Position numbers and translations under genes: made by a program
The notes under the pieces: model-generated
What the model was told of the DNA's origin: nothing
Seen by the model: only the letters and a program-made list of their open reading frames with translations
The model's database searches: none
From: a filamentous cyanobacterium CCT1
GTDB taxonomy: Bacteria; Cyanobacteriota; Cyanobacteriia; Phormidesmidales; Phormidesmidaceae
Direction of reading: 5' to 3'
Assembly: GCA_003017855.1 (NCBI GenBank)
Contig: PYER01000034.1
Span: 1-34,485, forward strand
DNA length: 34,485 nucleotides
Shown here: positions 6,995 through 15,621 of the stretch, piece by piece
Numbering within the stretch: position 1 is the stretch's first letter
Layout of the letters: each line of letters starts with the position of its first letter

Positions 6995-7261
6995 GGCTTC
7001 CCCTCCACCGACGGTGTTTGCAGATTGAGTAGATTGGTGCCGCCCCTCCGCAGGGGCCTCTGTCAGAGTACCCACAGAATACTCACCTACGTCTCTGGCG
7101 ATCTTGCCCTGGCGCTAATGATAGGCCAGCTTATTTAGGTTGAGAGACGGGTTTAAAGAGTTTTTTCTAGAATCGTAGGGGTAGGGTACCCGTTCTCACC
7201 CTGATCCATTCACAGCGCCTGATCCATTCATGCCCGAGGCGCGCCGCAGCAAGGAGATAGT

Positions 7262-7600
7262 ATGGCGATCGCACGTTGGTCTATTGGTCTTTTGCTGGGG
7301 GTCTTGCTGTGGCTGGGGCTAGGGCAGTACGTCGAGGCCCAGAGCGAGGCCCGCATCGACTCGCGGTTGAATCGCCTGGAGTCTGAACTCGGTCGGCTCA
7401 GGTCGCAGGTGAGACAGATAGAATCTCAGCTCTCCATTCCCAACCGTCCGGCCCCTAGCCTGCCCACCGTTACCCCACCCGCAGCGGAGCCTTCCCTCGA
7501 CGAGCAGTTCGACAACCTGGCTACGCTTGCGATCGAACTTAAGCAGCAGGTCAGACAGCTCGAAACTCGCGTCACTCAGCTCGAAAGAGCGACATCCTAG
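7262..7600 (+). CDS. Small exported coiled-coil protein
   Basis: 112-residue protein with a signal peptide (residues 1-26, ending VEA-QS) and two coiled-coil segments: about 30-58 (RLNRLESELGRLRSQV...) and about 85-110 (ELKQQVRQLETRVTQLE). They are separated by a Pro-rich hinge (NRPAPSLPTVTPPAAEP). Hydrophobic heptad positions are regular. AAGGAG lies seven to eight bases before the ATG, so the start is good. Its stop is 18 bases before the symporter start, which suggests co-transcription. No family name is recognised. It may oligomerise at the outer face of the membrane, perhaps with the symporter, but that is inference from gene order. Confidence 0.8.
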   Translation: MAIARWSIGLLLGVLLWLGLGQYVEAQSEARIDSRLNRLESELGRLRSQVRQIESQLSIPNRPAPSLPTVTPPAAEPSLDEQFDNLATLAIELKQQVRQLETRVTQLERATS

Positions 7601-7618
7601 TGTGGCAAGATAGCATCG

Positions 7619-9433
7619 GTGTTTGACGGGTACCCCGCTGTGATTTGGATTGACTGGGCCATTGTGGCCGTCTACATGGTCTTCAGCCTGGCTCTGGGCC
7701 TGTATCTTTCCCGCAAGGCAGCGGGCGGACTGGTGGATTTTTTTGTGTCGGGGCGATCGCTGCCCTGGTGGCTGGCGGGCACCAGTATGGCGGCGACTAC
7801 ATTCTCGATCGACACGCCGCTGTACATCGCTGGGGTGGTGGGTACCCGAGGCATTGCTGGCAACTGGGAGTGGTGGAGCTTTGGCATTGCCCACGTGGTC
7901 ATGATCTACGTCTTTGCCCGGCTGTGGCGGCGCTCTGAAATCATTACCGATGCGGAGCTCACGGAGCTGCGCTACGGCGGTGCGACGGCGGCCTGGCTGC
8001 GGGGCATCAAAGCCTTTTTGTTTGCGGTGCCAATCAACTGTATCGGCATTGGCTACGCCATGCTGGCCATGGTCAAAGTGATCGACGCCCTGCAAATCTG
8101 GCAGTCGGTCGGCATTGAGCCCGGCGAAAGTCTGAAGCTGCTGAGCGTGATTGGGGTCAGCGTGCTGGTGCTGGTCTATGCCGGTTTTTCGGGCCTGTGG
8201 GGGGTGGTGGCAACCGATTTTTTCCAATTCTTCTTAGCGCTGTTAGGAGCCGTGATCGTGGCGGTGGCGGCCGTGGTCAACCTGGGCGGCATGGGCAGCC
8301 TGATCGACCAGGTCAAGGCCACTGGAGGCACCGATTTGTTAGCCTTTGTACCCCTAGAGCGAGGAGCTAGTGGCTGGTACCAATGGAGCGAGACCGCCGG
8401 TATTTCGATCAGCACCTTTTTGGCCTACGTGACCTTGCAGTGGTGGGCCTTTCGCCGCAGCGACGGGGGCGGTGAATTTATTCAGCGACTGGCCGCCTCT
8501 AAAGACGAGGCCGAGGCCGAAAAAGCCGCCTGGTTTTTCAACATTTTGCACTACGTCATTCGCACCTGGCCCTGGGTGGTGGTGGCCCTGGCGGCGGTGG
8601 TGCTCTACCCCAACCTCGAAGACCGGGAACTGGGCTACCCCATGCTGATGCTCGACTTTTTGCCGCCCGTGCTGCTGGGGCTGGTGGTGGCTTCGCTAAT
8701 TGCCGCCTTTATGAGCACGGTCTCGACCCTGATTAACTGGGGCGCGTCGTACCTCACCAATGATTTGTACGGGCGCTTTTTGCGACCCGCCGCCACCGAG
8801 ACCGAACTGGTGCTGGCCGGGCGAATTGCCTCCGTGGTGGTGACGGGGCTGGGGGCGATCGCCGCCTTTTACTCCCAGGATGTGGCCACGGTATTTCGAC
8901 TAGTAATTGCGATCGGCACCGGGCCTGGGCTGGTGCTTATTTTGCGCTGGTTCTGGTGGCGCATCAATGCCGCCGCCGAGCTGGCTTCCATGCTGGCCGG
9001 ATTTTTGGTGGGTCTGGTTACCAGCGTCGTCCCCATTCTCACCATCGACGACTTTGGCCTGCGGCTGCTGGTCACTACCGCCATTACCACAGTAATTTGG
9101 GTTGCCACCATGCTGCTCACCGCCCCCGAAAGCGACGCCACGCTGGATACTTTCTACAGCAAAGTACGCCCTGGTGGTCCCGGCTGGGCTCGCCAGCGCC
9201 AGCGCACCGGCCTCTGGCCCGCCCAAGCCCTGGGCCGCGACCTGCTGCGGGCAGGCTTCGCCCTGCTGCTGCTGCTGGGAGCCATGCTCGGCGTCGGCGG
9301 CTTTTTGCTCTATCAACCCCTGACCGGCTGGTTTTGGCTAGTGGTAGCGGTAGCGGGCTGGGTTGGCCTGCGGCGCATGCGCAAGCCCGTGCCGCCCATG
9401 CCGATGCCTGGGATGGATGAGCCACCGGGATGA
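7619..9433 (+). CDS. Sodium:solute symporter family transporter
   Basis: 604-residue polytopic protein of the SSS (solute:sodium symporter) family. Early signatures are SGRSLPWWLAGTSMAATTFS then DTPLYIAGVVG, matching the family's GR..PWW..G.S..A..FS..T core that holds the Na+ site. About thirteen or fourteen hydrophobic helices follow, with TISTFLAY and SLIAAFMSTVSTLINWG as later conserved helices. The C-terminus ends in a Pro/Met-rich cytoplasmic tail (PVPPMPMPGMDEPPG). Members import sugars, amino acids, nucleosides or organic acids; the substrate cannot be read here. The start is GTG with a weak ribosome site, consistent with coupling to the preceding coiled-coil gene. Confidence 0.93.
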   Translation: MFDGYPAVIWIDWAIVAVYMVFSLALGLYLSRKAAGGLVDFFVSGRSLPWWLAGTSMAATTFSIDTPLYIAGVVGTRGIAGNWEWWSFGIAHVVMIYVFARLWRRSEIITDAELTELRYGGATAAWLRGIKAFLFAVPINCIGIGYAMLAMVKVIDALQIWQSVGIEPGESLKLLSVIGVSVLVLVYAGFSGLWGVVATDFFQFFLALLGAVIVAVAAVVNLGGMGSLIDQVKATGGTDLLAFVPLERGASGWYQWSETAGISISTFLAYVTLQWWAFRRSDGGGEFIQRLAASKDEAEAEKAAWFFNILHYVIRTWPWVVVALAAVVLYPNLEDRELGYPMLMLDFLPPVLLGLVVASLIAAFMSTVSTLINWGASYLTNDLYGRFLRPAATETELVLAGRIASVVVTGLGAIAAFYSQDVATVFRLVIAIGTGPGLVLILRWFWWRINAAAELASMLAGFLVGLVTSVVPILTIDDFGLRLLVTTAITTVIWVATMLLTAPESDATLDTFYSKVRPGGPGWARQRQRTGLWPAQALGRDLLRAGFALLLLLGAMLGVGGFLLYQPLTGWFWLVVAVAGWVGLRRMRKPVPPMPMPGMDEPPG

Positions 9434-9499
9434 GGGGATGCGGGGAGATAAGCGGTAAGATGAGAGAATCGGTTACATCCCTTCACACGCGATCGCCCT

Positions 9500-9730
9500 A
9501 TGTCGTTTTTCCGGTCTTACATTGCACCTTTGCTGATTGTGCTGATTTTTGCGGTGGCGATGCTGGCGGTGAGCGCCCGCATCTTTTTACCCAGCGATAT
9601 GATGGCCCCCGCGCCGATCGAAGAGCCCATATCAACGGTAAGTCCTGCACCGATCGCTCAGACCGATGGGATCATGCCAGAGCTGTCAGAGCTGATTCAC
9701 GGCCCCCAAAGCGATCGCGTTGCGGGCTAG
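9500..9730 (+). CDS. Small single-pass membrane protein
   Basis: 76-residue predicted protein: MSFFRSYIAPLLIVLIFAVA opens a single hydrophobic helix (about residues 7-27), followed by a Pro/Ile-rich polar tail. Codon use resembles neighbouring genes and the frame is open from ATG to TAG. The start lies three bases after a HIP1 octamer (9489-9496), and no strong ribosome site is visible. It follows the symporter by 66 bases on the same strand, across a purine-rich repeat. No family is recognised, and it could be spurious. Confidence 0.5.
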   Translation: MSFFRSYIAPLLIVLIFAVAMLAVSARIFLPSDMMAPAPIEEPISTVSPAPIAQTDGIMPELSELIHGPQSDRVAG

Positions 9731-10485
9731 CCTGAGTCCAGTAGGCGAGGGCATAACTAACAACGCTGACGCTTGCCGTGTAGCCAACTTCATTTAGCTA
9801 AAAGGGAACCCCCTAGCAGACATATTTGCCAGGGGGTTCTATGCGTAGACTTTATGTACCTTTTGCCTGTAACTTAACAACTTGCTAGCGGTGAAATAGC
9901 CTAAGCAAGATGCCTTTAGAAACGATTCGGAGACAGCAGCACTTTGACTGATTAACTTGAGATTTTTCCTCAAGAAAGTTCCGATAAATTAGAGATGTTT
10001 AAATGCCGTCGTAAAGAAACCATCGCGTGGGGTTTATAGCGTCTCTGGGCATTTCTTGCAGAGCTCTCAATCAGTTACAGAGAGGAAATATCAACAACCG
10101 AGTAAAGTGCTGCTGGTATTTGACGAAATAGATTCAGACGTTAAATCGATAACGTACCTCCTATTTAACAGGACTGAACTATTTGAACTGTCAGGGGAAT
10201 AAATCAGGTTTTTGTGTCAGGTGATTCACTTCCTTAATTACTAAGATACTCCCCGAGTTGGGGCATGGCTAGTGATGATACCAAAGTTTATGATTGGGTT
10301 AACAACTGCTCTCACAGCGTTGGAAAACCCAGAATTTCAACCCTACCCAGAACCGCCAAACTGCCGTTGACTAGAGCAGTGCGAGCCATATTGCAGGTAC
10401 GCTCAGACGCTACTATTGATAGGCGGCTATCTCGGTAGAGGTGGCCTGGTGGTAAGGCTACAGCCCAAGGTAAGGAGCGATCGCA
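9731..10485. other. A+T-richer gene-free region upstream of leuD
   Basis: About 755 bases with no credible reading frame. Besides the hairpin at 9806-9839 there are small stems, CTTGAG/CTCAAG (9956-9974) and CCCC-GAGTT-GGGG near 10251-10263. Base composition between about 9840 and 10320 is clearly more A+T-rich than the flanking genes. The last 100 bases should hold the leuD promoter. I see no tRNA and no known RNA; remnants of a decayed gene or mobile element are possible. Confidence 0.5.
9806..9839. terminator. Strong hairpin after the small membrane protein gene
   Basis: GAACCCCCTAGCA (9806-9818) pairs with TGCCAGGGGGTTC (9827-9839) at 12 of 13 positions, with loop GACATATT. On the plus strand TCTATG follows without a T-run; on the minus strand CCTTTTAG follows. 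It may end transcription of the symporter region on plus or block read-through in either direction. Confidence 0.55.
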
Positions 10486-11073
10486 GTGACGCAGATAGAA
10501 CAGATCACGGGAACCGGCATTCCTCTCAGAGGCAACGACATCGACACCGATCGCATCATCCCAGCTCGATTTCTGAAGTGCGTGACCTTTGACGGGCTGG
10601 GCGAGCAGGTGTTTGCCGACGATCGAGCCGCCCTGGAGGGCAGCCATGCCTTTGATCAGCCTCAGTATCAGGGCGCAACGATTTTGGTGGTGAACCGCAA
10701 CTTTGGCTGCGGCTCCTCGCGAGAGCATGCCCCCCAGGCGATCGCCCGCTGGGGAATCAAGGCGGTGTTGGGCGAGAGCTTTGCCGAGATTTTCTTTGGC
10801 AACTGCGTCGCGATCGGTATTCCCTGCCTGACGGCAACTTCGGAGGTGGTAGGCCAAGTACAGGCTGCTCTGGAGGCTGACCCCACCGCCCCTGTCACTC
10901 TTGATTTAGCCTCGCAAACCGTGCAGTTTGGCGCTAGAACCGAGACCATAGCCATGCCTGAGGGGGTGCGTCAGGCCTTTTTAGCCGGCACCTGGGATGC
11001 TTGCGGCCAGTTGGTAGCCAACGCCGGGGCCATCAGCGCCACAGCCGCCCAGCTGCCCTACGTGGCCTGGTAG
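10486..11073 (+). CDS. leuD: 3-isopropylmalate dehydratase small subunit
   Basis: LeuD, 195 residues, pairs with the iron-sulfur large subunit LeuC to isomerise 2-isopropylmalate to 3-isopropylmalate in leucine biosynthesis. Diagnostic motifs are [16 protein letters not shown] near the N-terminus and [15 protein letters not shown] in the middle, the swivel-domain substrate-binding loop of the aconitase family, followed by [12 protein letters not shown]. Length is normal. The start is GTG with TAAGGAG at 10471-10477 upstream; a HIP1 octamer lies between the ribosome site and the start. leuC is not in the window, as the two are often unlinked in cyanobacteria. Confidence 0.96.
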
Positions 11074-11179
11074 GGGTACAGCAGTCGCCCTACCCATAGA
11101 TTTGCAACGGCCTGTGGATTTTGCCGGAGAAATAGGCACTCTCTAGGGAGATCCCTCACCCCCGGCGCGGGCTGCTGCT

Positions 11180-12811
11180 ATGGTTTCATCCGCTGTGCGA
11201 TCGCTTACTCCCTGGTTGCCGTCAGAATCGGCGGCGCTGCCGGGCGCAACGGCCTCCACTCTGAGCAATACGGTGTGTCGCATGGCTCCTCTGGCCCTGG
11301 AGCGACCCGACCTGGAGCGAGTACCGTCGGTAGCAGCGGCGCTAAAGCAGCTGGTGGAGCAGAGCATGGTGCTGCGATCGCCCGCTGGCGGCTGGCCCGC
11401 CGACCTGCCTCAAACGCCAGAAAACCTTGGCGCTTACCTCAGCGAAGAGACCTGGGAACTTCTGGACGCCCTGGAAGCGAACCCACTATCTTCTCCAGCA
11501 TCAACAGCGCCAGGTATCGTCCCTATCACCGTTCTGGTACCCCACCTGCTGTGGATGCTGGCCAGCGGGGGCTACGAAATTATGCGCCTGATTGAGGGGG
11601 TCCAGGCCAGCGTTTTTGAACCGGATGGCTCAGGGACGGCACACATCGTGCGCCTGGTGCCAGTGCTGACGCTCACGATTGAAGAATCCCGCTACGCCCT
11701 CGATCTGGTTACCCAAACCGACCCAGTACCCTCCCTTCACCTGCCCGAGACGACTAGTCTTCGCCTGCTGGATAACGACCTGGACAACCGCTCCCGGCGC
11801 TGTAAAGACCTGCTGGAGCAGGTAGCCCAGATTCTGAGCTACGCCCAGCCAGGGCTGGCTACTTTACTGGGCGATCGCTGCTCTGTCGAAGCCCTCCGAC
11901 CTTTTCAGACCTGGCAGCCCGCTACCCTCAGCCTGCAGCTTCATCTGGCTCAAATGGATGCCAAGGCGCATCCTCGTCACTCGGGCAGAACCGGGGCTAG
12001 CCCCAACGCGCTTTACCTGCCGTCAGATGAAAAGCAACCCTCTAAAGCTGACACAGGCTTTACCCTCGACGACTTCGCTAGCACATTGATCGAAGATCCC
12101 GGCGATGCTACCGCTGGGGTGCTGGGCAACTGGCTGACCTTTACCAATGAGAGCTGGATTCAGGCTTTTCTCAATGTCTGCGCTCAGCGGATAGTTGCTC
12201 AAAACCTTCCCCAGATAGCGCCAGGTAACGGTGGAGAGAGCGCCACTTCCGAGCTGCTGCGCCAGCGCGAGGTCTTCTGCAACCTTGTTACCTACAGCGC
12301 TACCGACCTGGTGCAGGGGGTCAATGGCTTGTTTAAGCACACCTTCGTGCACGAGCCGGTGCTGGTAGCTGACCTATGGCCTCGGCTGCGCTGGTACCTG
12401 GCCCAAAGCTCAGAACGCGTGATGCAGCTGATGGGCGGAGTCTCAACCCAGGTGCTACCCCCCGGTCTGAGCTGGCAGCAGGGTAGCCTCTACCTGCGTC
12501 CGCTGATGCAGCTGACAACTGCGCAGCGCAGCTGGATTATTGACCTGAGCCGTGGACGCCTGCTGCCCACCAGCTCCCAGGCCCTACCCGCCGATGCCGC
12601 CGTAGACATAGCCGACGCACCCTGGCGTAACCCGCTTACCGTAGCCGAGCTAACCACCCTAATCGATCGCGACCTGAGCACCCATACCCCAGCCATTGCC
12701 GCTCTGCGCCAGGGCACGTCCATTCACCTACACAGGCTCGATGCCGAAGCAGGCTGCCAGCCGGGCCAGCTCACGCTCGACTGGTGTTTTACCCTACAGG
12801 CTTCTCTATAG
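11180..12811 (+). CDS. Unrecognised 543-residue protein built of two related halves
   Basis: No known family or motif is recognised. The protein is largely helical and probably cytoplasmic, with no signal peptide or membrane helix. It contains an internal duplication. Residues about 118-185 (LVPHLLWMLASGGYEIMRL ... GV ... ESRYALDLV) align with about 398-465 (LWPRLRWYLAQSSERVMQL ... GV ... QRSWIIDLS). The ends of the two copies also resemble each other: QPATLSLQLHL near 246 and QPGQLTLDWCF near the C-terminus. The second copy is preceded by a linker (about 265-300) rich in Ser, Pro and Gly. The ribosome site is weak, so the start may be later; Met at residue 35 is an option. The next gene, 180 bases downstream on the same strand, is a GvpL/GvpF protein. 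Confidence 0.75.
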   Translation: MVSSAVRSLTPWLPSESAALPGATASTLSNTVCRMAPLALERPDLERVPSVAAALKQLVEQSMVLRSPAGGWPADLPQTPENLGAYLSEETWELLDALEANPLSSPASTAPGIVPITVLVPHLLWMLASGGYEIMRLIEGVQASVFEPDGSGTAHIVRLVPVLTLTIEESRYALDLVTQTDPVPSLHLPETTSLRLLDNDLDNRSRRCKDLLEQVAQILSYAQPGLATLLGDRCSVEALRPFQTWQPATLSLQLHLAQMDAKAHPRHSGRTGASPNALYLPSDEKQPSKADTGFTLDDFASTLIEDPGDATAGVLGNWLTFTNESWIQAFLNVCAQRIVAQNLPQIAPGNGGESATSELLRQREVFCNLVTYSATDLVQGVNGLFKHTFVHEPVLVADLWPRLRWYLAQSSERVMQLMGGVSTQVLPPGLSWQQGSLYLRPLMQLTTAQRSWIIDLSRGRLLPTSSQALPADAAVDIADAPWRNPLTVAELTTLIDRDLSTHTPAIAALRQGTSIHLHRLDAEAGCQPGQLTLDWCFTLQASL

Positions 12812-12993
12812 GGAGTATGTCCATACCATCTGTTAATGCGGACGCTCAGACCAAGCTTTCTCCACTGCCACGACGGCTGTAGTGGTTTCAAGGCCGTAAG
12901 TTTTATGGCATTTTTACGAGATACCGCCCCGAGGTAAAGTTCAGATCGCCTAGAGTGAGATCGAACGTAGCGCATCCAAAGGCGTTTGATACC

Positions 12994-13686
12994 GTGTCTT
13001 CAGAGTTGACTCCAGGGCCCATCTACCTCTACAGCATTTGCCCCCGACCACAGCAGCCCCTAACGCTACCTCTGGGGCTGGCCGAACCCACCCAGCTAAT
13101 TGCTGTCGATAATATTGCCGCCGTAGTCGAAACCGGTGTTGATCTAGAAACCCTGCAAACCGACGAGCCGCGCCTGTTAAATGCCGTGCTCAGCCACGAT
13201 CGCGTCATCTGTGAGCTGTTTCAAACCACACCACTGCTACCCCTGCGGTTTGGCACCCAGATTGCCTCCCTCGACCATCTCAAGGCCCACCTGGCAACTC
13301 AGGGCGCCGACTACGCCGCCAAGCTGGAGGCCCTGGCCCACAAAGCCGAGTACCAGCTCAAGCTAGTTGCCCAAACGGTTGAGCTACCGCCCGTGGCCGC
13401 AGGCCTAACCGGGCGCGACTACTTTTTGGCCAAAAAACAGCGCCTCGAAGACCAAACCACCACCCAGGAACAGCAGCAGGCCGAACTCGCCCAGGTGCTC
13501 GACCACATCTACAGCGCCTACAGCGACTGCCTTGAGGCCGAAGGCCCGGCTGGGGAAGCCCGCGTCTACATCCTGGTCGATCGCGAGGACGAAACGTTAT
13601 TACAGCAGGTCGAAGAGTGGCGATCGCAGGCTCCCCACTGGACTCTCATCCTCAGCGAACCCCTCCCCCCGTACCACTTCGTCTAG
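12994..13686 (+). CDS. GvpL/GvpF-family gas vesicle protein
   Basis: 230-residue protein of the GvpL/GvpF family, the accessory proteins needed for gas vesicle assembly. Recognisable parts are GPIYLYSICP at the start, DRVICELFQTTPLLPLRFGT, the strongest family signature, and the KAEYQLKL and VYILVDRED strands. The frame is open from GTG 12955, but GTG at 12994 has AAAGG about ten bases upstream and starts close to the conserved N-terminus, so I prefer it. No gvpA, gvpC, gvpN or other gvp gene lies nearby. It is therefore either an outlying member of a cluster elsewhere or a repurposed relative, as GvpF homologues occur in strains without gas vesicles. Confidence 0.88.
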   Translation: MSSELTPGPIYLYSICPRPQQPLTLPLGLAEPTQLIAVDNIAAVVETGVDLETLQTDEPRLLNAVLSHDRVICELFQTTPLLPLRFGTQIASLDHLKAHLATQGADYAAKLEALAHKAEYQLKLVAQTVELPPVAAGLTGRDYFLAKKQRLEDQTTTQEQQQAELAQVLDHIYSAYSDCLEAEGPAGEARVYILVDREDETLLQQVEEWRSQAPHWTLILSEPLPPYHFV

Positions 13687-13746: not shown

Positions 13747-15192
13747 CTACTGTCCAACCTGAAACTCCGGATAGGCCTCCATCGCGTGTTCGCCCAGGTC
13801 AAGACCCTGAATTTCTTCGGCTTCAGAGACGCGAATGCCTATCGTTGCCCGCAGCGCCAACCAGCACACCAGACTAAAGGCCACCGTAAACGCCCCCACT
13901 ACGGCAATACCCAACAGCTGCACGAGCACCTGCTGAATACCGCCCCCCATCAACAACCCGGCCAGCGGGCCAGACTCCTGGTCATACCAGGGAAAACCGC
14001 CCGGGGTAACGCTAAACAGGCCCAGGGCTAGCGTGCCCCACACGCCACACACCAAATGTACGGAGACAGCTCCCACCGGATCGTCAATCTTGAGCCCGTC
14101 TAGCAGGGTGACCGAAAACACGACAATGACGCCCGCCACCAGGCCAATCAGCGCCGCGCTGCCCAGGGTGATGTATGCACAGGATGCAGTCACCGCGACC
14201 AGCCCGGCCAGCACGCCGTTGATAATCATCGACAGGTCGGGCTTGCTGAGATAGATCCAGGAGGTGACAGTAGCCGCCAGCCCCCCCAATGCAGCAGCAA
14301 TATTGGTCGTCACCACAATGTGGCTAATGGCCAAGGGGTCGGCGGCCATCGTAGACCCGGGGTTAAAGCCAAACCAGCCCAGCCACAAAATGAGACAGCC
14401 CAGAGCCGAAATACTCAGGTTGTGGCCAGGCATCGCCACCGGACGCGCCTGAAAGCGACCCCGCCGCGGCCCCAGCAAGATTGCCCCAATTAGCGCCGCC
14501 CAGCCGCCGACGGAGTGTACCACCGTCGATCCCGCAAAATCATAAAACCCCAGGTTGGCCAGCATACCGCCGCCCCACACCCAGTGGCCGGTAATGGGGT
14601 AAGAGATGCCCACCAGCAGCAGGCTAAAGATAAAAAAGGCCAAAAACTTAATCCGTTCGGCCACCGCCCCAGAGACAATAGTAGCCGCCGTGCCCGCAAA
14701 GGCCAGCTGAAAGAAAAATTTAGCGTTCAGGGGCACCCCGGCCCAGCTTAGAGCGTTAAAGGTGCCCCGATAGGCTTCACCGACGGCAGGGCTGTTGTCG
14801 GCCCCCTGCAGCAAAAACCCTGAGAACCCAAACAGGGGGTTGCCGTCGCCAAACATGAGGCCAAAGCCCACCACCCAAAACGCCAGCGTGGAAAGGCCGA
14901 ACACAATCAGGTTTTTGGCCAGCAGGTTGACGGCGTTTTTGCTGCGGCAAAATCCGGTTTCGAGCATGCAGAACCCGGCATTCATAAAGAACACCAGAAA
15001 CCCGGCCACCAGCACCCACACTGTATCTAGCGCTACTTGAAGATCAGCAGCGCTGGTCCCCTGGGCCAGAGCAGCGGGACAGAAAACGACCAAGCTGCCT
15101 AACGCTCCCCAGAGAGCGTAGTGCCAACGCCCCTCTGGCCTATGGAGGGGTTGCCAGCCCTCAGTAAGGGCTCTTGATTGTTGCTGGGACAT
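13747..15192 (-). CDS. amt: Ammonium transporter
   Basis: Amt/MEP/Rh-family channel, 481 residues. An N-terminal signal-like helix ([16 protein letters not shown]) precedes eleven transmembrane helices. Key features are [16 protein letters not shown] on helix 1, the pore histidines in [10 protein letters not shown] and [13 protein letters not shown], and the family signature [20 protein letters not shown]. The protein conducts NH3/NH4+ across the cytoplasmic membrane for nitrogen assimilation. The open frame extends to 15243, but ATG at 15192, with TTGGAG upstream, starts at MSQQQS and fits best. No glnB follows. The upstream region contains an imperfect NtcA-type site (15371-15384), consistent with expected induction under nitrogen limitation. 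Confidence 0.96.
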
Positions 15193-15621
15193 AACGACCA
15201 CGTGACTCCAATGGACTCTCTTTATAAGCCCATAGGTTGCCACGAATTGCTGTTACTGGTGCAAGTATTTATACTGCTTCCAGGTTGGCAGCGGGGCCGT
15301 AGTTATGGGTGTAGCTAACCGCTCTTACGCTAGAGACTGTTATAGAAGAGGTGCGAGTCAAGGATAGGCAGTAACAAATATCACCTCTGCAAAGTTTCCG
15401 TGAAATCCCCTAGAAGCGCTAGGCCCTGTGGAGAGGTCAGGTTAAAACTGGTTGCAGTGTAGCGTTTGGTTTGAGAAAACTCAACTATTGAGACATTGAC
15501 CAAGTTGAATTAGACGGCAAGTCTCCACCGAGACTGATCAGTCGTTCATCATCTACTGCCATCGCACTTCAGGGAGAGCTCTACCATTCATGATTCACCT
15601 TCTTTAAGGAATATCAAGCTA
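15193..15621. other. Divergent promoter region between amt and the PTPA-CTERM gene
   Basis: About 430 bases without a gene, serving both divergent genes. On the amt side there is a GTATTTATAC palindrome near 15265 and an NtcA-like site. On the other side AAGGA sits upstream of the PTPA-CTERM start. No complete -35/-10 pair stands out. Confidence 0.5.
15371..15384 (-). promoter_or_regulatory. Imperfect NtcA-like site upstream of amt
   Basis: The plus strand reads GTA-N8-CAC, one base off the GTA-N8-TAC palindrome bound by the nitrogen regulator NtcA. On the minus strand TATAAC lies 27 bases downstream, a little farther than the usual 22. The site is about 180 bases upstream of the amt ATG. 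Cyanobacterial amt genes are commonly NtcA-activated, but this match is weak and could be chance. Confidence 0.25.

Follow-up and report, generated by a model that had tools for sequence, protein, structure and literature searches.

A protein of four KGK-like units with a MazG-like N-terminal piece, encoded with gvpW, is probably an overlooked part of the gas-vesicle building machinery in cyanobacteria

The open reading frame at positions 11180-12811 on the forward strand of the window (the whole stretch of 34,485 nucleotides that was analysed) starts with ATG and encodes a protein of 543 aa, as the preliminary description had it. The product is referred to here as TWO. It lies between a gene which we take to be leuD, given its Aconitase_C match, and a gene of the GvpL/GvpF family. 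The features of the locus are as follows.

10486..11073, + strand: leuD (Aconitase_C match), upstream neighbour conserved in the genus
11180..12811, + strand: TWO, 543 aa, MazG N-terminal piece and two double KGK-like copies; dN/dS 0.17-0.20
11324..11482, + strand: MazG piece, residues 49-101, with EExxE and without the ELGD (ExxD) part (hhalign, NCBIfam)
11504..11959, + strand: copy 1, residues ~109-260, first and second KGK-like unit (hhalign, shuffles, AF2)
12062..12076, + strand: TLDDF motif, residues 295-299, in the low-confidence linker (motif search)
12332..12802, + strand: copy 2, residues ~385-541, third and fourth KGK-like unit (hhalign, shuffles, AF2 of copy 2 alone)
12955..13686, + strand: GvpW, GvpL/GvpF family, start codon uncertain (PF06386, 120.8 bits; tree)
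13747..15243, - strand: ammonium transporter gene, right flank of the inserted or lost pair, a flank also present at the empty site L220

No tRNA, tmRNA or Rfam family was detected at gathering score in the whole window (1-34485). Purifying selection acts on the codons of TWO (dN/dS 0.17-0.20 in comparisons with three relatives); for comparison, the nearby genes gave 0.10-0.13 (gvpW), 0.03-0.11 (leuD) and 0.10-0.13 (ammonium transporter). Relatives of TWO were found at 14 loci, mostly in the Nodosilinea/Leptolyngbya group, thirteen at 66-88% identity and one at 46%, and more of them came from other genomes. Two-copy members encoded in one frame measure 498-1078 aa, and L096, whose frame is broken near its end, measures 484.

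The product of 12955-13686 exceeds the PF06386 cut-off of 23.6 bits severalfold and stays far below the GvpL and GvpF equivalog cut-offs. It matches the GvpW of a complete gvp cluster at 183 bits, and in a tree it groups with 23 other GvpW-type rows, apart from five GvpF rows, with a split support of 100/100. This neighbour had been named GvpF from the letters alone; by the 183-bit match and the tree split its sequence instead marks it as GvpW, the second GvpL/F-type protein of cyanobacterial gas vesicles, which the available part of PMC2963123 (where it is printed as GlpW) calls distantly related to GvpL/F. The distance from TWO, earlier given as 180 bases, is 143 when counted to the first GTG start of the downstream frame, the start of which is uncertain. 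That gene had also been called lone, which holds only for its place, because further gvp genes of the same genome lie on other contigs: gvpA (C528), gvpJ and gvpK (C263), and gvpF and gvpG (C268). Genomes with gvpA mostly carry two GvpL/F genes, GvpF at ~180-238 bits and a second, lower one mostly at 80-142 bits. Two complete clusters (L170, L171) have the order gvpA-C-N-J-K-F-G-V-W, with names assigned from position using PMC7204071, in the part available, as a guide; there gvpW lies a few kilobases from gvpF, as do many GvpW copies of other genomes.

Searches of TWO and its halves against Pfam and NCBIfam gave sub-threshold matches only, chiefly to MazG; the NCBIfam MazG model scored 22 bits (E 9e-5; cut-off 208). 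Aligned by hhalign with a profile of 17 MazG sequences, residues 49-101 matched over 53 columns with probability 98.9 and E 1.7e-17 (all hhalign E-values reported here are for single comparisons). The N-terminal piece is 45% identical to one cyanobacterial MazG and corresponds to the start of cyanobacterial MazG, the shared 53-residue stretch including LRSPxGGxPxDLxQTPxxLxPYVxEE, whereas the ELGD (ExxD) segment of MazG and what comes after it are unmatched in TWO. The metal site of MazG consists of EExxE plus ExxD, and MazG needs ExxD. In TWO the EExxE lies at residues 89-93 and ExxD is absent, leaving the site incomplete. EExxE-like residues persist in many members, and no ExxD was found within 60 residues past the EExxE region in 29 of the 31 members having the MazG piece; the exceptions are L009, with one directly after EExxE, and L049, with two in the stretch before copy 1. 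Because the EExxE stretch is retained and the ExxD part is missing, the piece appears to be catalytically incomplete, and TWO should not cleave nucleotides. A separate MazG-like match, in a frame of 293 codons, is present elsewhere in the window's genome (G000:C439). The AF2 confidence over residues 1-111 of TWO is very low (pLDDT <50), so the fold of the MazG piece in TWO is unproven.

The remainder of TWO consists of two diverged copies (residues ~110-262 and ~385-543 in the profile alignment) and the linker between them; the duplication had been recognised in the preliminary description. The halves are already alike by single-sequence BLASTP (58 aa, 33% identity, E 2e-7), and profiles of copy 1 and copy 2 built from 20 members align over 148 columns with probability 99.9, E 4.8e-33 and a score of 194.5, against 25.3 for the best of 60 column-shuffled controls. 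The paired stretches first proposed, residues 118-185 and 398-465, lie inside the copies and reach no further than the first part of each; QPATLSLQL and QPGQLTLDW, rightly matched as copy ends, close the second part. An AF2 model of the whole protein, built with 15 sequences, has a mean pLDDT of 57.3, the copies standing at block means mostly of 57-88. Both copies show the same predicted order, helix-helix-strand-strand-strand, strand, helix-helix-strand-strand, to which copy 2 adds a further short strand; this agreement between the halves had been put forward as a check on the duplication. In copy 1 the elements are H116-128, H132-139, E141-146, E152-167, E170-175, E193-196, H208-222, H224-231, E234-238 and E246-259. 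When copy 2 was modelled alone, with an alignment of both copies of the 15 proteins, the mean pLDDT was 82.3 and the pTM 0.77, and the order of elements was retained. Fold searches returned nothing significant for the full model (mean pLDDT 57; Foldseek best E 0.31, VIA-align best Z 4.1 in the linker region) or for copy 2 alone (pLDDT 82; Foldseek best E 0.13, VIA-align best Z 3.7), and no match to a solved Gvp structure reached significance. These null searches do not show a new fold. A kinship of the copies with GvpF/GvpL was considered and found no support, as the Gvp queries gave no match to TWO.

Each copy is itself double. The first and second halves of the joint copy profile are alike with E 4.4e-12 and a score of 56.3 (shuffled maximum 16.8). 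The repeat profile also matched small cyanobacterial frames, and in all six of those scanned Pfam reported KGK (PF08872), above the gathering cut-off of 25.6 bits. A profile of 28 KGK sequences aligned with the second half of a copy at E 8e-13 (score 60.5) and with the first half at E 2.7e-9 (score 47.8), the maxima of 60 column shuffles each being 15.9 and 17.7. This set included sequences first met through the repeat profile; a rerun with 19 sequences, which leaves these out, gave E 4.4e-11 and 4.3e-9 with scores of 53.5 and 47.7 (shuffle maxima 15.5 and 15.4). Each copy is thus composed of two KGK-like units, and TWO therefore holds four. Four of seven scanned relatives of TWO pass the Pfam KGK cut-off themselves (L047 38.5, L045 25.8, L098 39.1 and L097 40.1 bits), two of them with two matched stretches; L049 (12.3 bits) and L056 (15.7 bits) fall below it, and L101 and TWO of the window have no Pfam KGK match. 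It had been stated that no known domain is visible, which is wrong, since the MazG piece and the KGK-like units are detected with profiles and the KGK cut-off is passed in four distant relatives.

The KGK family and the copies of TWO share the pattern G[IV]xxxxLxPgxxWxxGxxrlxlxF, whereas the LDE[IL]R-like end of many KGK sequences is absent from the copy ends. KGK proteins are small, ~120 aa according to the available part of PMC5827413, in contrast to the 543 aa of TWO, in which four units form two fused double domains on the MazG piece. The same source, as far as available, describes the function of KGK as enigmatic, potentially mediating protein contacts, and places the KGK gene typically downstream of dynamin-like genes in one cyanobacterial clade.

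A variable linker of 85-621 residues joins the copies; in TWO of the window most of it is predicted with low AF2 confidence. Its TLDDF motif occurs once in L057 and once in each of the 21 sequences from the window's genus; in L047 the linker (residues 348-470) carries TL[DE][DE]F five times at a spacing of 28-32 residues. A looser linker pattern gave 29 matches overall, where 1000 shuffles averaged 0.15 and never exceeded 3; the motif was picked after viewing the sequences, 21 of which are not independent. The motif is absent in 14 of 17 distant TWO members.

The suggested pairing with a GvpL/F-type gene recurs in the neighbourhood survey. In 26 of 42 loci gvpW is the next gene after TWO and has the same orientation, and in none does it precede TWO; the 42 entries stand for at most 41 distinct loci, because L013 and L061 are the same stretch of one contig. 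The pair is found in 10 of the 18 genera having the two-copy protein (g1, g5, g9, g14, g15, g23, g26, g33, g35 and g72). Its surroundings differ among genera, and in six loci (L045, L046, L047, L048, L050 and L097) the two genes are separated by 9-38 bases or overlap. In L047 the order is gvpV-TWO-gvpW. The 16 loci where gvpW does not adjoin TWO include the single-copy loci L056 and L101 and the duplicate entries L013 and L061. In a survey of 22 representative loci, one per genus and three for the window's genus, the commonest neighbour by BLASTP was GvpW (9/22), followed by leuD (5/22). TWO was never inside the main gvp cluster in the loci read. A strict tie of TWO to a gvpW outside the gvp cluster was considered and rejected: G177 and G307 have TWO together with an in-cluster gvpW, and several genomes (G231, G333 and G376 among them) have a displaced gvpW and no TWO.

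One locus, L099 (genome G063, positions 7053-12781), carries on one strand, one after another, genes for a dynamin-like GTPase (Dynamin_N, 57.8 bits) and a KGK protein (90.3 bits), then a small ORF of HNH-like appearance (judged by eye), and finally TWO and GvpW, thereby joining the published dynamin-KGK pairing with TWO-GvpW.

In a sample of 57 genomes of relatives, repeat-bearing members were present in 36 of 42 genomes with gvpA and in 0 of 15 without it. Across the phylum, in a sample of 386 cyanobacterial genomes, the counts were 13/56 and 0/330 (Fisher p 3e-12, uncorrected for the relatedness of the genomes; six of the thirteen carriers are in both samples). Counted among the 36 and the 13 carriers are genomes with single-copy proteins (G052, G274). 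The phylum searches scored up to three, then up to ten candidates per genome and may therefore have overlooked weak members. Short matches covering only the MazG stretch, sorted by matched range (three were read), were excluded as members; eight phylum genomes with weak half-unit matches only (E 8e-4 to 6e-7) were left uncounted, and the one frame read among them, in G412, is a KGK match. Three genomes without gvpA that gave long matches or frames (G028, G051, G045) hold plain MazG over its length and no repeat, and GvpL/F-family pieces over the cut-off occur without TWO in G030 and G045, which also lack gvpA. When the 47 gvpA-bearing non-carriers of both samples were rescanned with the repeat profile, weak KGK-like half units appeared in G412 and G036 and none in the rest.

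Within the window's genus TWO is present in 23 of 23 genomes with gvpA and in 0 of 3 without it. These three (G005, G006 and G018; 85, 97 and 99% complete) have no gvpA, no GvpL/F gene over threshold and no TWO. In G005 (locus L220) only 13 bases separate the end of leuD at 1899 from the start of the ammonium transporter gene at 1913, and the TWO-gvpW pair and any repeat match are absent. The other two show no clean empty site, because the contig of G006 is only 3 kb long and G018 has other genes after leuD. Genomes with gvpA and without TWO number 6/42 and 43/56 in the two samples, among them those with GvpW in a complete cluster (such as L170 and L171), so TWO cannot be generally essential.

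In these samples TWO resembles the gas-vesicle accessory proteins GvpF, G, J, K, N, V and W in occurring only with gvpA and in being encoded with GvpW, and once also with gvpV; none of the Gvp or ArsA queries matched it. The ArsA-like ATPase, a link to gas vesicles already in print (PMC2963123, in the part available), matched strongly in 70 of 75 gvpA-bearing genomes examined, in contrast to TWO, which is present in only part of the gas-vesicle genomes.

Because its gene accompanies a gvp gene and is found only in species with gas-vesicle genes, TWO is probably an overlooked part of the gas-vesicle building machinery; a tie to gas vesicles as such we consider very likely. The whole reading, to which we give a probability of about one in two, is that TWO is a non-enzymatic accessory scaffold or adaptor acting with GvpW in assembly. 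The MazG piece would then probably be a docking or dimerising helical hairpin, and the two double KGK-like domains, with a variable linker that bears TL[DE][DE]F in some members, would make a two-headed adaptor. This would most likely hold GvpW, perhaps with other assembly factors, together in shell nucleation or chaperoning, since GvpL/F-family proteins elsewhere bind GvpA or gather accessory proteins. In haloarchaea all other accessory Gvp are drawn in by GvpL, and GvpF alone has been found as a partner of GvpA (PMC7688916, available part); in another system GvpF probably acts as a chaperone of GvpA2 (PMC11445434, available part). A protein that combines a hairpin lacking a complete active site with a long linker and two double KGK-like heads, and whose gene accompanies gvpW, would by analogy suit an adaptor for a GvpL/F-type complex. 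The analysis demonstrates the duplication, the domain make-up, the pairing with GvpW, the confinement to gvpA-bearing genomes in the samples searched and a single locus of a gvp-less relative from which the pair is cleanly missing; physical contact between TWO and GvpW, loss of enzyme activity and the scaffold role are inferred.

The main rival is that TWO is a regulator: a nucleotide would be detected by the MazG remnant and the signal passed through the KGK-like heads to GvpW, timing vesicle building. The good conservation of the MazG piece, the EExxE-like residues of many members and, in the loci read, a gene position away from the main gvp cluster speak for it; against it, the ExxD part that forms the other half of the metal site is missing, and the members scanned matched no DNA-binding or signalling family in Pfam or NCBIfam, which leaves this reading unlikely. 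The missing ELGD part also counts against the proposal that TWO is an active nucleotide pyrophosphohydrolase of MazG type carrying additional domains: significant as the similarity is (hhalign E 1.7e-17), only 53 MazG residues are matched, and the same genome has the other MazG-like match of 293 codons (G000:C439), so that we find it barely credible.

GvpW and TWO might also have been reused, for instance in membrane or organelle remodelling with KGK proteins and dynamin-like GTPases, the tie to gvpA being only historical. The dynamin-like gene, KGK gene and small ORF just upstream of TWO-GvpW in G063 (L099) are consistent with this, as is the order of dynamin-like and KGK genes in one cyanobacterial clade (PMC5827413, available part). 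Yet the full repeat occurs in 0/15 and 0/330 genomes without gvpA, the three genus members that lack gvpA and GvpL/F genes also lack TWO, and many GvpW copies elsewhere lie within a few kilobases of gvpF; we regard reuse as quite improbable. That TWO just sits in the leuD neighbourhood as a hitch-hiker unrelated to GvpW would agree with leuD adjoining TWO in the genus loci, even where GvpW is not nearby (L058-L062), and in L057. However, outside the genus TWO no longer adjoins leuD in most genera read, yet often still has GvpW beside it, and leuD is present where the TWO-gvpW pair is absent; such hitch-hiking is very improbable, and the leuD neighbourhood is probably local synteny only.

Should the adaptor reading be true, TWO would be a further assembly factor and would explain part of vesicle building in cyanobacteria with a displaced gvpW, a molecular process still called elusive in the available part of PMC11445434; gas vesicles are in use as ultrasound reporters. 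It would also give the KGK domain, enigmatic in the portion of PMC5827413 at hand, a testable biological setting. Its place away from the gvp cluster and its weak family matches make TWO easy to overlook. In open-licence literature, searched by title or abstract start, neither the TWO family nor a MazG/KGK protein with gas vesicles was found. Two co-occurrence studies, as far as their text was available, report a gas-vesicle module: in PMC5862535 it includes two ATPases and has unnamed members, and in PMC5464585 it has ArsA and two uncharacterised proteins, which may or may not include the TWO family. A broader conjecture, which we hold doubtful, is that KGK-like units are general cyanobacterial adaptors for large shells or coats, single units serving dynamin-like GTPases, and that TWO is a lineage-specific scaffold on a recycled MazG hairpin which, in many genomes whose gvpW no longer lies in the main cluster, joins GvpW in taking over some of the work of the gvp-cluster assembly machinery.

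Some further observations concern the ATPase and members of unusual form. The idea that TWO and the gvp-type ArsA ATPase exclude each other was considered and rejected: ArsA exceeded 290 bits in 28 of 28 carriers of TWO or a single-copy protein, in 42/47 gvpA-bearing non-carriers and in 0/4 genomes without gvpA. In L170, L171 and L174 gvpW is followed by a two-domain ArsA-like ATPase gene and an AAA-type gene (named by eye). At L046 (positions 8519-10038 of the one-contig genome G050) TWO is divided over two frames overlapping by 4 bases, one of 378 aa with the MazG piece and copy 1 and one of 128 aa with copy 2, through a frameshift, a sequencing error or a real split; the frame of L096 is likewise broken. 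Single-copy relatives are encoded at L056 (8507-9151, 214 aa) and L101 (8668-9327, 219 aa), and the MazG piece was detected in neither; they may represent an earlier stage of the TWO family. A KGK-like gene (9442-9810) adjoins the single-copy relative at L101.
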